From: Planctomycetota bacterium
GTDB taxonomy: Bacteria; Planctomycetota; Planctomycetia; Pirellulales; Thermoguttaceae
Reading direction: 5' to 3'
Length of the DNA: 64,000 bases
Assembly (NCBI GenBank): GCA_030612765.1
Contig: JAUWNG010000003.1
Coordinates: 1-64,000, forward strand
The notes beneath the pieces are model-generated. The model ran no database searches and was not told the DNA's origin. It saw only the letters and a program-made list of their open reading frames with translations. A program made the position numbers and the translations under genes. How positions within the stretch are numbered: position 1 is the stretch's first letter; each line of letters opens with the position of its first letter. Below, one piece after another: positions 2,392 to 44,513 of the stretch.

Positions 2392-3624
2392 TCAGCCCGC
2401 CCGTCTCCGCCGCCAAACGCCGTAGCCGGCGGCAACCAAGCCCAGCAGCCCCCAGACGAAGATCGTGCCCGGCTCGGGAATTGGCGCGCTTAGCGGATTA
2501 CTCCAATCTACGTAGTCGCTGACTGCATCGCCCAAACTTCCAGCCGCGCCGTAAACTCCGCTAGGACCGAGGGGATCGCCCCACCAGTTGCTGAGGGCTG
2601 ATACTTCTACGGTAGAATAGTTGTAACAGCCGTATCCCGTGTTATCGTAAATGTTGTTGTGGTATATGTTGATGTTTGACGGTGTTCCATCAATCCCGAT
2701 ACCATTGCCGGTTCCATTATAGCCGTTCCATGTACCGCTATTGTTGTAGATTGTATTTCCAAAAACATCTACATTGGAGCAACCATCCTTGAGACTCAGG
2801 GCACCTATCGAATAGCCCTCCCCAGCGACGTTGGTAACGGTATTGCCGCTGATGGTGGCGTTGTCTGACGCAACGAAGCTGATGCCACCCTCACGAGCGC
2901 CATCGATAAAATTACCGGTGATGATGGCGTCTGGACAAGATGGACCGCACCAACCGGCTCCACCTACCCAAATACCGTGATCTCCCGAGTTCAGGACCAT
3001 GTTGTCCGTAATTGTCGCGCCGCTGGATCCCTTGGCGATGAACATTCCATCAGACAGATTGTTCTGAATCAGGCAGTTATGAACTGTCAAGTTCTGGTTG
3101 CAGTTTGCATACATCGGGTAGCAGTTATTCTGCGACTTGATGTTCTCGGCCGTGCAGCCGGCGTAGTAGACAAAACCTTCGACTTCCGTATCGTGGGCAT
3201 AATCGCGGAACAGGACACCGTAGCCCCAATAATTCACCGCACCAAAATTCTGAACCGTAAGGTTTTGGATGGTAACATTATCTGCCGTGGTATGGATGCC
3301 TTTGGCCCAAGCAGTAGTGCTGAGGCCACTACCATCAAGAATAACCCCGTCCCGGCTTTGACCTATTAATGTCAGGGATTTTTCGATTCTGACAAATGGA
3401 CTGCTTGGGGCATTGTAGGTTCCATCAGCTACGTCGACCGTCCCACCGGCGTCAACCATGTCAACGCCTTTTTGGATCGTCGCGTAGGGCGATGAAGAAG
3501 TCCCATCGCCTGTAAGGTCGCTGCCCGTCGTAGAGACGTAAATGTAAATGGCAGCGCGTGCGTCTGTGCCGAGTAGCAGGACCACTCCCACAAGCCCAGT
3601 CACCGCAATTATAGAACGTTTCAT
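2392..3624 (-). CDS. secreted right-handed beta-helix protein with PEP-CTERM anchor
   Basis: A 410-residue exported protein. It opens with a signal peptide (MKRSIIAVTG, hydrophobic to about residue 25, cleavage near ARA-AI), followed by a DUF1565-like start (YVSTTGSDLTGDGTSSSPY) and repeated Asn/Gly-rich turns such as ITGNFIDGA and ISGNTV typical of PbH1 parallel beta-helix repeats. The C-terminus is a classic PEP-CTERM signal: IPEPG, a hydrophobic helix and RRRRAG. The ATG at 3624 is chosen because AGGAGA lies just upstream and it begins exactly at the signal peptide; the frame is open further upstream to 3747 without a site. It is probably a substrate of the exosortase encoded at 4361-5551. 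Ligand or enzymatic activity is unknown. Confidence 0.85.
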   Translation of the reverse strand: MKRSIIAVTGLVGVVLLLGTDARAAIYIYVSTTGSDLTGDGTSSSPYATIQKGVDMVDAGGTVDVADGTYNAPSSPFVRIEKSLTLIGQSRDGVILDGSGLSTTAWAKGIHTTADNVTIQNLTVQNFGAVNYWGYGVLFRDYAHDTEVEGFVYYAGCTAENIKSQNNCYPMYANCNQNLTVHNCLIQNNLSDGMFIAKGSSGATITDNMVLNSGDHGIWVGGAGWCGPSCPDAIITGNFIDGAREGGISFVASDNATISGNTVTNVAGEGYSIGALSLKDGCSNVDVFGNTIYNNSGTWNGYNGTGNGIGIDGTPSNINIYHNNIYDNTGYGCYNYSTVEVSALSNWWGDPLGPSGVYGAAGSLGDAVSDYVDWSNPLSAPIPEPGTIFVWGLLGLVAAGYGVWRRRRAG

Positions 3625-3888
3625 CTCAGTCTCTCCTGATTCTTTTCGGGCTGTTTCCCAGTTGTGTTCGCCTCGCCGTCGTCCCGCAAAGACGTTTCCG
3701 CGGCTGTGATTACTCCGGGAGGCGATACTGCATTTGTCTACAAGCATATAGACCGCCGAAGGCCGATTCCTGACAAGCGGAATAAAAAAAATCTTCTAAA
3801 ACCAAGAAAGTTCCTCCAGAGCACCTCTGCGGTGGGGAAAAAGGCGGTTTTTTGCCACCAATAGGGCGGGGTTTACCCCACAATCCGT

Positions 3889-4261: not shown

Positions 4262-4350
4262 AAAAAGAGGTCAGAGATCGGAGGTCAGAGAATTTCTGAT
4301 TTCTGATTTGCCTTTCCTGCCCTCTGACCTCTGCTCTCTGACCTCTTTTT
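4262..4350. repeat. long inverted repeat built of AGAGGTC-type heptamers
   Basis: Left arm (4262-4292) and right arm (4319-4350) are complementary over about 27 bases with only a few mismatches in the middle. Each arm contains GAGGTCAGAG-type units, the same heptamer family found in the exosortase 5' region and at 43868-43918. The right arm ends in TTTTT and the left begins with AAAAA, so it could act as a bidirectional terminator. Confidence 0.65.
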
Positions 4351-4360
4351 CGTCGGCATC

Positions 4361-5551
4361 GTGAAGTTGCACCAACGCAAGAGAAAATACCGGCCACCGC
4401 AAAAAATGAGGGGCCAGAGGCCAGAGGTCGGAGGTCAGGGACCAGAGGTCGGAGGCCAGAGGTCAGAGGTCGGAGGCCAGAGGTCAGAGGTCGGAGGCCA
4501 GAGGTCAGAGATCGGAGGTCAGGGATTAGAGGCCGGAGATCGGCAATCATCAATCATCAATCATCAATCATCAATCTCCTGGCCCCCGGCCCCCGTCGTG
4601 CTGGGCGGCGCGATTCTGGCGGCGGCGTTTGTTTGGGCGTACTGGCCTACGCTGGTCAGTCTGGTCGCCACGTGGAACCGCGAGCCGGACTACTCGCACG
4701 GATTCCTCGTCGCGCCGTTGGCGGTCTATTTTCTCTGGGTCCGGCGCGACCGGTTTCCGGGCGGAAAAGGGGACAGGTCCAATTTGTGCGTAGCACCCTC
4801 CGGGTCGTTCCGGCAAATTGGACCTGTCCCCTTTTCGTGGCTGGACGTTGTCTTCGGATTGGGCTTGATCGCCGCCTGCGTCGCCGCCCGGGCGCTGAGC
4901 GCGCACTTCTATCTCGACGCGATCGACGGCTGGTCGATTCTTCCGTGGGTGGGTGGAGTGGTGTTGCTGCTGGCCGGGCGGAAGGTGTTTTGGTGGAGCC
5001 TGCCGTCGATCGCGTTTCTGTGGTTCATGGTGCCGCTGCCGTATCGTGTAGAGCGTTGGTTGAGCCTGCCGCTGCAGGGAGCGGCCACCAAGCTGAGTTG
5101 TTGGATTTTGCAGGCCCTGGGGCAGCCGGCCTTGGCCGAGGGACACGTCATCTTCCTCGGCGATCACCGGCTGGAAATCGAACAGGCCTGTTCCGGCTTG
5201 CGAATTTTCGTGGGGATCGTGGCCTTGGCGTTCGCCTACGTGATCGTGGCGCGCCGGGCCTGGTGGGAGAGGGCGCTGTTGCTGCTCAGCGCCGTTCCGA
5301 TCGCCTTGCTGGCCAACGCCGCGCGGATCGTCGCCACGGGCCTGCTCTATCAATATGTTTCGGGAGAGGCGGCGAGGAAATTCTCCCACGACGGGGCGGG
5401 CTGGGTGATGATCCTGTTGGCCGCCGGGATGTTCGGGCTGGTGTTGTGGTACTTGTGTCGGCTGGTGCAAGAAGTCGAGTTGGTCGGAGTCGGCGACGTC
5501 GTTCGCCGGGAACGAGTTGGGTCGGCGGTGCAACGGCCGACCCGGCACTAG
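4361..5551 (+). CDS. exosortase (transpeptidase sorting PEP-CTERM proteins)
   Basis: A multi-spanning membrane protein of the exosortase/EpsH family. The proposed catalytic residues are all present: Cys277 (EQACSGLR), Arg322 (NAARIVATG) and His343 (FSHDGAGW). About eight hydrophobic segments follow residue 75. The GTG at 4361 opens a 396-codon frame whose first 75 residues are encoded by heptamer repeats (GGQRSEV peptide repeats); a GTG at 4598 may be the real start, giving 317 residues. A perfect 23-bp inverted repeat at 4764-4836 is inserted in frame (residues about 134-160). Likely cargo includes the PEP-CTERM proteins at 2392 and 44909. It heads the exopolysaccharide locus, 17 bases before the Wzc-like gene. 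Family certain, start uncertain. Confidence 0.9.
   Translation: MKLHQRKRKYRPPQKMRGQRPEVGGQGPEVGGQRSEVGGQRSEVGGQRSEIGGQGLEAGDRQSSIINHQSSISWPPAPVVLGGAILAAAFVWAYWPTLVSLVATWNREPDYSHGFLVAPLAVYFLWVRRDRFPGGKGDRSNLCVAPSGSFRQIGPVPFSWLDVVFGLGLIAACVAARALSAHFYLDAIDGWSILPWVGGVVLLLAGRKVFWWSLPSIAFLWFMVPLPYRVERWLSLPLQGAATKLSCWILQALGQPALAEGHVIFLGDHRLEIEQACSGLRIFVGIVALAFAYVIVARRAWWERALLLLSAVPIALLANAARIVATGLLYQYVSGEAARKFSHDGAGWVMILLAAGMFGLVLWYLCRLVQEVELVGVGDVVRRERVGSAVQRPTRH
4411..4576 (+). repeat. heptamer tandem repeats at the 5' end of the exosortase gene
   Basis: From 4411 to about 4540 the DNA is a run of imperfect 7-bp units (AGAGGTC, GGAGGCC, GGAGGTC and variants). It is followed at 4545-4576 by four units of AATCATC. 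Three 7-bp units encode a seven-residue peptide repeat in the long reading frame. The same unit length recurs at 18372-18399, 18584-18625 and 43868-43918. Confidence 0.85.
4764..4836 (+). repeat. 73-bp perfect inverted repeat inside the exosortase gene
   Basis: Arms at 4764-4786 and 4814-4836 are perfectly complementary over 23 bases and are separated by 27 bases. The arms contain GGGGACAGGTCC. The element is translated in frame and adds a hydrophilic loop between predicted membrane helices. Related GGGGAC/GTCCCC cores occur at 34049-34069 and about 42145. Confidence 0.9.
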
Positions 5552-17798: not shown

Positions 17799-19126
17799 AA
17801 ACGGTCGTAGTTCATCTAACCGCCTCCCGTTTTTTCGGCGGACCGGAACGGCAGATGCTCGAACTGGGAAAGGCCCTGCCGCCGGAGATTCGGTCCGTAT
17901 TCGTCTCGTTTGCGGAAACAGGGCTGTGCCGGGCGTTCATCGAAAAGGTCCGCCAAGACGGTTTCGAGGCACTCGCCCTGCGATACGACACGCCGCGACT
18001 GCTGGCCGCTATGCGGGAACTCATGGGCGTTCTGCGCCGTGCGGGGGCCGACGTCATCTGCTGCCACGGATACAAAGCCGGACTGCTCGGACTCTTGGCA
18101 GCTCGACGGCTCGGAATTCCAGCTATTGCGGTATCGCGAGGTTGGACGGGTGAGAATTTCAAGGTGCGTCTCTACGAGGCCCTCGACCGCCGGGTGCTAC
18201 GCTGGATGGACAAGGTCGTCTGTGTATCGGAAGGCCAAGCCGCGAAGGTTCGCCGGGCAGGTGTTCGCGAGGACAAGATCACGGTGATCCACAACGCGAT
18301 TCGGCCCGAGCGGTTTGGAAACGCCGATCCCGTTTTTCGTGAACAACTGCGGCGGATGTTCGGTGCGGAAAAGTGGTCAGTGGTCAGTGGTCAGTGGTCA
18401 GAGCAGGCAGGCGGCAAATTTCCGACCGGCCCCGACATAATCGTCGGCGCGGCAGGCCGTCTCAGCCCGGAGAAGGGCTTCGATGTTTTGATCGACGCGG
18501 CCGCGGAGGTGCTTAAATGTAGTCGGCACACTCCGTGTGCCGAAACCCGGCAATGTAGTCCGCACACTCCGTGTGCGGTCCCCACTTCCCACGCCCCACT
18601 TCCCACTTCCCACGCCCCTCTTCCGTCGATTGGCTTCGTCCTCTTCGGCGACGGCCCCTTGCGCGAGTCGTTGGCCCGGCAGATTGAGGCCAAGGGACTG
18701 GAAGGCAAGTTCATTCTCGCCGGATTCCGTTCCGACTTGGACCAATTCCTACCGCACTTGGACCTCATGGTGCTCCCTTCCTTTAGCGAGGGCTTGCCGA
18801 ACGTGGCGTTGGAGGCGCTGGCGGCGGGCGTGCCGGTAGTGGCCACCGCCGTCGGCGGCACGCCGGAGGTGGTCGAGGACGGACTGACCGGCTACCTGGT
18901 TCCGCCGGGCGACCCGGCCGCGTTGGCCGAGCGAATGATTTTGGTCCTCTCCGATCGCACAATCCGCACACGATTCGCCGCCCAAGGCCGCGACTCCGTT
19001 GTCCGGCAGTTCTCCTTCAACACACAAGCAACACTGTACCAAGACCTGTTCGATCGTTTGTCGGCCAAAGTAACCACCCTCGCAACCGAGCCGGCACACG
19101 CCACTGAAACCGGCGCCGCATTGTAA
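17795..19126 (+). CDS. family 4 glycosyltransferase with in-frame repeat insertions
   Basis: A 443-residue GT-B enzyme: N-terminal HLTASRFFGGPERQMLEL, C-terminal VGAAGRLSPEKGFDVLIDAA and the donor-binding FSEGLPNVALEALAAGVPVVAT. The GTG at 17795 overlaps the methyltransferase stop and follows GGGGAG. Two segments do not belong to the fold: about residues 191-206, from four AGTGGTC heptamers (18372-18399), and about residues 240-277, from two palindromes (18524-18542, 18560-18578) plus six heptamers (18584-18625). Both lie at loop positions, so the enzyme may still fold, but change of one heptamer would shift the frame. Confidence 0.9.
   Translation: MKTVVVHLTASRFFGGPERQMLELGKALPPEIRSVFVSFAETGLCRAFIEKVRQDGFEALALRYDTPRLLAAMRELMGVLRRAGADVICCHGYKAGLLGLLAARRLGIPAIAVSRGWTGENFKVRLYEALDRRVLRWMDKVVCVSEGQAAKVRRAGVREDKITVIHNAIRPERFGNADPVFREQLRRMFGAEKWSVVSGQWSEQAGGKFPTGPDIIVGAAGRLSPEKGFDVLIDAAAEVLKCSRHTPCAETRQCSPHTPCAVPTSHAPLPTSHAPLPSIGFVLFGDGPLRESLARQIEAKGLEGKFILAGFRSDLDQFLPHLDLMVLPSFSEGLPNVALEALAAGVPVVATAVGGTPEVVEDGLTGYLVPPGDPAALAERMILVLSDRTIRTRFAAQGRDSVVRQFSFNTQATLYQDLFDRLSAKVTTLATEPAHATETGAAL
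18372..18399 (+). repeat. four tandem AGTGGTC heptamers inside a glycosyltransferase gene
   Basis: Four perfect copies of a 7-bp unit at 18372-18399, followed by a partial AGAG unit. They are in the coding region, and 7 is not a multiple of 3. Confidence 0.95.
18524..18625 (+). repeat. palindrome pair plus ACTTCCC/ACGCCCC heptamers inside the same gene
   Basis: Two 19-bp palindromes with the same core (GCACACTCCGTGTGC) at 18524-18542 and 18560-18578, each preceded by AATGTAGTC or a close variant, are followed by six 7-bp units of the ACTTCCC/ACGCCCC type (18584-18625). The whole block is translated. Confidence 0.9.
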
Positions 19127-42495: not shown

Positions 42496-43869
42496 TCATT
42501 TCAACAGATACCGGTTGGCGATGCTGATGCCGCTGATGATTGCGCCGACGATGCCGACCAGGCCCTGATCGTTGCCGCAGATGTAGAGATTCTTTAGATG
42601 CGAGGTGCCGTCGTGCCGCTTATCGGCCGCGCCGTAGACGGAACCGCCGGTATGGCCGGTGAAACGGTGGATCGTCAAAGGCGTGAACATGTCGCCGCCG
42701 ATCACCGAGTCGCTGAAATCGGGGACGAATCGGGCCGCCGACTCCATCATCCGCTTTCCCCAATCCTGCTTTGCGCGGCGATACGCCTCGGCGTCCAAGG
42801 CGGCCCAACGCTCGTAGTTGGCCAACGCCGAGATCCGCAAAATCCCCTCGTCCAACGGCTCGGGATAGGCGAAGTTGTTCGGCGAACAGATCATGCCGCT
42901 GCGCAGATCGACCAGGTCGTCCGGCTTCTCGTAGTGAAACTTATCCGAATCGTTGTAGAAGATGATCGTCTGTTCGTGGCCCAGGGCGTGGGGCTGCGAA
43001 TCGAGGACCGAGATCGACTCGACCACGGAAATCCGGTTCGGCGCCGTGGCATCTTCGGCGTGCCCGTCGTCGCAGAGCCGCATGGTTTCGGTCCAGCCGG
43101 CCGAGGAGAGTACGTTTTGGGCCTCCATTTCCGAGCCGTCTTCCAGGACGATCTTTTGCACCGTGTCCCGCTCGACGACGATCCGCGCCACGCCCGCCTT
43201 CAGCCGCAGTTCGCCCCCCTGTTCCTTGAAGCGGCGGGACAATATCGTCAGGATGCGTTGGATTCCGGCCAGCGGCCGGGCAAGCCCCTCCAGAAAGATC
43301 GAGCGGAAGAGGATGCTGAACTGATCGAAGTCGATGTCGTGTTCCCGCGAGCCGCCGTAGAACAGCACCGGGCAGAAGATCATCTCGACCAGCAGCGGGT
43401 CGTCGATAATCTCGGAGACCACCTGCCGGGCGGAACGGCCCGCGCCCGATTGGCCGAGTTGGTCGTAGTCGTGCAGCGAAGCGACCAGGCGGCGGAAGTT
43501 GTCCGTCTGGCGGGGGAACCGGCAGCGGACCTCCGATTCCAGCAGCGAGAAATCGTTCGAGAACCGCAAGCCGGCGGCGGGGAACATGATAACCGAGCCG
43601 AGCTGCGGCGCCAGCGCCCATTCGTCCCAGGCGAGGCGCAATTGGCGGAACAGCCGGGCCATCGGTCCGGTCCGGGCGCCCTTGACGGCGTAGTTGGTCA
43701 CGGCGTGCAGCCCGACGTCGTAGGTCCGGCCGCGTTGCCGATAGAAGGAGTTCAGCCCTCCGATCGCGCTATGGCGTTCGAGGATGCAGACCTTTCGTCC
43801 GAAGTGGGCCAAACGGACTCCGGCCGCCAACCCCGACATTCCGGCGCCGATGATAATCGTGTCGTACAT
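42496..43869 (-). CDS. CrtI/retinol-saturase-like FAD oxidoreductase
   Basis: A 457-residue flavoprotein. The N-terminal dinucleotide fold is MYDTIIIGAGMSGLAAGVRLAHFGRKVCILERH followed by the GG motif (SAIGGLNSFY). The C-terminus has the FAD-closing GSVYGAADKRHDGTSHLKNLYICGNDQGLVGIVGA. This is the phytoene-desaturase/all-trans-retinol 13,14-reductase superfamily. In planctomycetes such genes often neighbour acyl-carrier-protein and ketosynthase genes, as here (49149-50733), so it may desaturate or saturate an acyl chain rather than a carotenoid. It starts with a tight heptamer-repeat block just upstream (43868-43918). Confidence 0.83.
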   Translation of the reverse strand: MYDTIIIGAGMSGLAAGVRLAHFGRKVCILERHSAIGGLNSFYRQRGRTYDVGLHAVTNYAVKGARTGPMARLFRQLRLAWDEWALAPQLGSVIMFPAAGLRFSNDFSLLESEVRCRFPRQTDNFRRLVASLHDYDQLGQSGAGRSARQVVSEIIDDPLLVEMIFCPVLFYGGSREHDIDFDQFSILFRSIFLEGLARPLAGIQRILTILSRRFKEQGGELRLKAGVARIVVERDTVQKIVLEDGSEMEAQNVLSSAGWTETMRLCDDGHAEDATAPNRISVVESISVLDSQPHALGHEQTIIFYNDSDKFHYEKPDDLVDLRSGMICSPNNFAYPEPLDEGILRISALANYERWAALDAEAYRRAKQDWGKRMMESAARFVPDFSDSVIGGDMFTPLTIHRFTGHTGGSVYGAADKRHDGTSHLKNLYICGNDQGLVGIVGAIISGISIANRYLLK

Positions 43870-43918
43870 GAGGGGTCAGGGGTCAGAGGTCAGAGGTCAG
43901 AGGTCAGAGGTCAGAGGG
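43868..43918 (+). repeat. GGGGTCA/AGAGGTC heptamer repeat
   Basis: Seven or so near-perfect 7-bp units of the AGAGGTC type, the same family as in the exosortase gene 5' region. It begins at the very start codon of the FAD oxidoreductase gene and occupies its upstream region. Confidence 0.9.
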
Positions 43919-44002
43919 TAATGGGATTTTCCGCAACAGAAACAATATGGATATATTATCTCGACGGCGGCGATTCCGGCAAGAGTTGCAGGACGGGTTA
44001 GC

Positions 44003-44128
44003 AGCCTGTTGAAAAAGCCGGTTCCCGAGAGTTCGGGTGCCACTGCTGGCTTGTCCAGCAGTGTTTTTCCGGGTGTTTCTCCCCACACTGCGGGACAAGC
44101 CAGCAGTGGCACCCTTTTTCAACGGGCT
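44003..44128. repeat. nested palindrome element
   Basis: Outer arms AGCCTGTTGAAAAAG (44003-44017) and its complement (44114-44128) match at 14 of 15 bases. Inner arms at 44035-44056 and 44093-44114 match perfectly over 22 bases and contain CACTGCTGGCTTGTCC. A further short hairpin of the same repeat lies at 44041-44063. The gap 43870-44908 has no credible gene; it also holds the repeat of AGGTTGATCAACCT and a hairpin near 44158-44190. Confidence 0.9.
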
Positions 44129-44513
44129 GTTAGGAAATCCGTCCTACGGATGATTTTTGGGCGGGAAAAACGGTTTTTGCGCCCGCCATAGCCCCATGCA
44201 AAAAAGACCGAAAATGCCGGCGGCCAGAAAACAGCCTTTTTATAGGCGTTTTCGGCTGGTAGAATGACCTCGTCGCACATACCTCGCAGGAGGGGTAATT
44301 GCATAGGATTTCGCGCCCGTCGCCGCAAGCCCATGTTGTTATTCATGTTACAGTCGATTTTCCGGCCTGAATTAACTGGAAAAGATTCCCGATTTCGCCA
44401 CTTAATTCTTGCGTCGATTCGCCGAGGGCCGACGATGCTCTCAAACCGCCTGAACCACGGGCTATTCATTTCGCATCGCGGCCGCGCTTTAGACGTAAGT
44501 GCGGTTAAACCCC

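Follow-up and report, generated by a model that had tools for sequence, protein, structure and literature searches.

An in-frame heptanucleotide repeat tract at the 5' end of a planctomycete exosortase gene: one member of a dispersed repeat population and probable source of a variable N-terminal tail

Heptanucleotide repeats are known from Xanthomonas, Nostoc, Calothrix and Beggiatoaceae, and in many bacterial genomes they are reported to outnumber every other repeat class; their over-abundance has no accepted cause, the standing guess being a footprint of DNA polymerase (PMC4692102, PMC4679880, and work cited there). Known representatives are GGGAATC in Xanthomonas and GGGGA(C/T)T in Nostoc, whose G-rich strand tends to be the non-coding one upstream of genes and the coding one downstream (PMC4692102). 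The tract considered here lies at the 5' end of an exosortase gene in a Planctomycetota bacterium of the family Thermoguttaceae, within a stretch of 64,000 nucleotides (the window). A preliminary description of this sequence had proposed that slippage in the tract could turn the exosortase on and off, or alternatively that the tract acts on transcription or leader structure. In a partial literature search, no paper devoted to exosortase phase variation was found, the yield being three papers with one or two mentions each. By the features tested, the tract belongs to the bacterial heptanucleotide repeat kind, and its family has further copies dispersed across the whole genome.

The assignment of the gene as an exosortase was borne out: within the long open reading frame that contains the tract (4361-5551), PF09721 matches from residue 87 (E 2.9e-60) and the NCBIfam profile TIGR02602 scores 131.9 bits against a cut-off of 105.55, while C262, R307 and H328 are invariant across 15 aligned sequences. 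It is not the only sorting enzyme, as a second exosortase (C175) is encoded in the same genome. The adjacent divergent gene (2392-3747, minus strand) has a C-terminus that resembles a PEP-CTERM sorting signal (IPEPGT...RRRRAG), and its product is a likely exosortase substrate on the strength of this motif.

Table 1. Features in and around the exosortase gene (positions in the window).
Feature	Position	Strand	Basis or remark
Heptamer pair upstream of the gene, purine-rich arm first, pyrimidine-rich arm second	4262..4346		hairpin z -6.8
GTG 4361, upstream start of the preliminary description	4361..4363	+	weak context, LR about 0.18
Exosortase gene, likeliest start ATG 4406, 381 aa	4406..5551	+	start-context model; ortholog tails; Pfam/NCBIfam
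Purine-rich heptamer array, AGAGGTC/GGAGGTC/GGAGGCC variants	4412..4538	+	Tandem Repeats Finder period 7; autocorrelation
Pyrimidine-rich heptamer array CAATCAT, 4.7 perfect copies	4544..4576	+	Tandem Repeats Finder
GTG 4598, start of the preliminary description	4598..4600	+	poor context, LR about 0
REP-like palindrome, GGGGACAGGTCCAATTT plus inverted copy, in frame inside the exosortase	4767..4839		

Tandem Repeats Finder confirms that the 7-bp repeats are genuine and located where they had been reported (Table 1). The program reports the purine-rich array at period 7 and fits it better at 21 or 42, with scores of up to 198; by autocorrelation the AGAGGTC part reaches an identity of 0.87 at 21/42 bp versus 0.73 at 7 bp. 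A slippage unit of 7 bp, which is not a multiple of three, applies to the AATCATC part, the main tract being best described at 21/42 bp. Read in the exosortase frame, the purine-rich array encodes repeats of the (RSEVGGQ) type. RNA folding shows nothing unusual for the tract (z -0.46), which leaves the leader-structure alternative unsupported; no promoter was found at the tract, and terminator-like sites there barely exceed chance.

Both GTG codons put forward as starts are in frame with the long reading frame (GTG 4598 at residue 80), but each is weaker than a previously missed in-frame ATG at 4406, which borders the tract. Start contexts were scored with a model trained on 59 unambiguous starts among predicted genes of the own genome (G000) and of a sister species (G002); these starts came from a home-made gene caller, and gene calls throughout derive from its simple codon model. 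ATG 4406 has the best context, with a score resembling that of a weak genuine start (LR about 4), and the same ATG in the sister species reaches an LR of about 6. The score of GTG 4598 falls under all 59 reference starts and under 85% of internal start-like codons, and a start there would leave one residue ahead of the first helix. Among the ATG-led orthologs, most have 12-60 residues ahead of the corresponding position; counted from the shared ATG, this tail comprises 64 aa here versus 36 aa in the sister. Against such a tail, the nearest outside relative (L010/L017) is without an ATG-led one and its start would be GTG or TTG, and two relatives have an internal ATG near the GTG 4598 position as well. 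In the predicted structure, nearly all of residues 1-56 have a pLDDT below 50, and the first helix spans residues 62-92. Given the context of ATG 4406 and the tails of the ATG-led relatives, the tract is most likely translated as a disordered N-terminal tail, a reading that combines start context, orthologs and the structural model. With ATG 4406 as the start, the tract would probably fall between the start codon and the functional domain; with GTG 4598 it would not.

That the tract is variable was confirmed by the sister species, in which it is 12 units shorter (84 bp, 28 codons). The frame is open in both, and the difference is not the one or two units anticipated from a switch; in a single sister species the frame would be kept by chance one time in three. 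The AATCATC part has the same length in both species and differs by one substitution. The genomes of the genus are drafts in hundreds of contigs, and the sister at least is metagenome-assembled.

The tract is far from alone. Used as a query, the 400-bp tract region gave 74 matches in its own genome, itself included, and two further genomes of the genus carry tract-like arrays. In 289 kb sampled from the own genome there are 29 exact tandem arrays of period 7 versus none in an order-2 shuffle; among the other periods from 2 to 30, eight arrays were found at 14, two at 21, three at 9, one at 30 and none elsewhere. The density of exact heptamer arrays per 100 kb is about 10 in G000, 3.4 in a further genome (G001), and 13 in the small, partly match-selected contig set of the sister. 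Four other genera of the family range from 2 to 13, and stretches of about thirty genomes across family and order, all combined, yielded just a handful. The motifs are diverse (AGAGGTC, TAGTGGG, CCCGAAC, AAGGTCC, GAGGGGC, AATCATC, TCAGTTG and others). Predicted genes hold 48 of 146 sampled arrays, the remaining 98 lying outside genes or at contig edges; with 80% of the sequence coding, this amounts to an excess of arrays in intergenic DNA together with tolerance of arrays in genes.

Between G000 and G002, where the array flanks are about 94% identical, the clean cases differ in array length by -84, -7, +7, +7, -21 and +21 bp, and other loci show mixed lengths. Some of these pairs are of doubtful orthology: L075/L104 and similar ones belong to a gene family present in several copies, and the L052 and L059_6174 pairs include inserted palindromes. 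The family in question (L071, L075, L092, L100-L104; FecR-like in two members) carries heptamer arrays at two recurrent positions, with motifs that differ by copy. All coding arrays keep frame between the two species; since several intergenic arrays do so too, these frame statistics are weak evidence. A general 21-bp preference of coding arrays was considered and dismissed, lag 21 beating lag 14 in just 2 of 17.

In-frame arrays reside within genes for MutL, SMC, UvrA, a penicillin-binding protein and a DegT aminotransferase, and further ones in squalene/phytoene synthase, M50 peptidase and glycosyltransferase genes. The DegT insertion occupies one exact loop, where it is present in G000, G001, G002 and G015 and absent from G017, G006 and G047. 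Such insertions in conserved genes look tolerated and not regulatory. Within the window, two arrays (18366-18407 and 18579-18624) lie in frame in a glycosyltransferase gene (17855-19126) between two Pfam domains, and the sister gene has an additional REP-like palindrome beside the first of them. Another window array (43866-43926) stands directly upstream of the apparent start of a minus-strand gene and is 15 bp shorter in the sister.

Other repeats accompany the heptamers. The pair upstream of the exosortase can fold into a very stable hairpin that ends in a T run, and its first arm is lost in the sister species. The REP-like palindrome lengthens the exosortase by about 23-27 aa, is absent from orthologs outside the genus and encodes a disordered loop in the predicted structure; copies of its core number in the dozens in G000 and G002, with none in G001, and Y1-type transposase genes are present. 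At 43998-44500 of the window, two dispersed repeat families of about 134 bp (partly self-complementary) and about 370 bp each have many matches in the sister genome.

Neighbouring arrays follow a strict strand order. Among close pairs, a purine-rich array precedes a pyrimidine-rich one in 25 cases and never the reverse, with three same-type pairs. Of the ordered pairs, 23 come from the catalogue and two from G002 contigs taken regardless of arrays; the unselected part alone gives seven ordered, no reversed and two same-type pairs. Examples come from loci of G000, G002 and G001 (L059 812-1021, L063 10234-10324, L095 3070-3177), and the exosortase tract itself conforms. A purine-then-pyrimidine pair reads in the same order on the opposite strand, so that the order cannot stem from how the strand was chosen. 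Pairs in genes and intergenic pairs both show it, and in about half of the pairs the two arms have unrelated motifs; in one case (L090 versus L047) the motif of both arms changed together between species. Orientation near genes shows the same lean, weakly (38 versus 27 downstream of stops, 37 versus 23 upstream of starts). Selection for bidirectional terminators was rejected as a general cause, since pairs within genes obey the order too and many arms are non-complementary. The order might conceivably have been left by some enzyme that starts at a single point and adds 7-base units outward on both strands, for example during break-end extension, an idea we offer as speculation to which we give little credence. 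In G000, G001 and G002 (88-94% complete), neither a reverse transcriptase (PF00078), as a telomerase-like origin would suggest, nor Ku (PF02735), as would fit end joining, was found.

These observations bear on how the exosortase tract should be understood. We consider it probable, with some reserve, that the array changes the length of the exosortase tail in a near-neutral manner as one member of a lineage-wide heptamer population, and that it is not a dedicated on/off switch. The competing proposal of translational phase variation, in which slippage by one or two heptamers toggles the exosortase frame and thereby PEP-CTERM sorting in a subpopulation, has several points in its favour: the start-context model makes translation of the tract probable, array length differs between species, the AATCATC part repeats perfectly at 7 bp, and the claim that a 7-bp change breaks the frame is correct, given that removal of one unit in silico yields products of 38 or 126 aa. 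Removal of three heptamers, by comparison, gives an intact product of 374 aa. The switch is nevertheless improbable and the slippage claim goes unsupported, for both species keep the frame, the AATCATC length is constant, the main tract is regular at 21/42 bp and a second exosortase is available. Moreover, like arrays stand in frame in many ordinary genes such as those for MutL, SMC, UvrA, the penicillin-binding protein and DegT, where switching is implausible.

Somewhat more credible, albeit still unlikely, is that translation begins at GTG 4598 and that the tract belongs to an untranslated 5' region, whose length changes would be neutral or of slight effect on expression. The conserved domain starts at about residue 80-87 of the long reading frame, arrays are enriched between genes, and pyrimidine-rich arrays directly upstream of start codons in other genes of the same genome make an untranslated position possible. 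On the other hand, the context of GTG 4598 is the worst of the three starts, the single residue it leaves before the first helix departs from what most ATG-led relatives show, and the folding of the tract is unremarkable. That the copy number is an artefact of short-read assembly in metagenome-assembled genomes is highly improbable: repeats can collapse, and the name of the sister contig denotes a k141 metagenome assembly, but the longest exact 21-bp-periodic stretch (68 bp) is shorter than a 141-base k-mer, and the array lies between the same flanks in two separate assemblies.

Under the favoured reading of a length-variable tail, dispersed heptamer arrays would change in copy number and sequence through replication slippage and point mutation. 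The exosortase array would lie within the coding sequence, right after ATG 4406 and in a stop-free orientation, and would be translated as a disordered tail preceding the first membrane helix, as start context, orthologs and the model suggest. Length changes in multiples of 21 bp would keep the frame and be tolerated, others being lost to selection, and the resulting changes in tail length are probably neutral or nearly so. For the exosortase itself this is a modest matter of a variable, probably disordered tail. Of wider relevance is that many motifs share the 7-bp rule and the strand-order rule and enter conserved genes in frame. An insertion common to a related genus with an empty site in other genera makes the origin of an array directly testable, and how far enzymes tolerate low-complexity insertions can likewise be tested with these arrays. 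In a partial literature search, no description of the motif diversity, the in-frame insertion into genes or the strand order in planctomycetes was found.

Comparison with known systems places the tract among the heptanucleotide repeats. Like those of Xanthomonas and Nostoc, the arrays have a 7-bp unit, are dispersed and mostly intergenic, vary in copy number among close relatives and show an orientation lean on the sides of genes; unlike in those genera, where one or two motifs occur, each genome here holds many unrelated ones (PMC4692102). About a third of the sampled arrays lying in frame within predicted genes and the strict purine-then-pyrimidine order of neighbours are further differences from these two genera. 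The TAACTGA repeats of Beggiatoaceae, cyanobacteria and Bacteroidetes likewise adjoin start codons at some loci and change in 7-nt indel steps, but they represent a single motif that is seldom found inside genes (PMC4679880). With contingency loci, the exosortase tract may share a unit indivisible by three, as in its AATCATC part, close to the 5' end of a gene for surface-protein sorting. It departs from them in the frame kept in both genomes, the 21-bp regularity and the presence of like repeats in ordinary genes. Rickettsia palindromic elements are in-frame repeats in conserved genes; the in-frame REP-like palindrome of the exosortase can be likened to them, whereas the heptamer arrays differ in being non-palindromic and variable in length.
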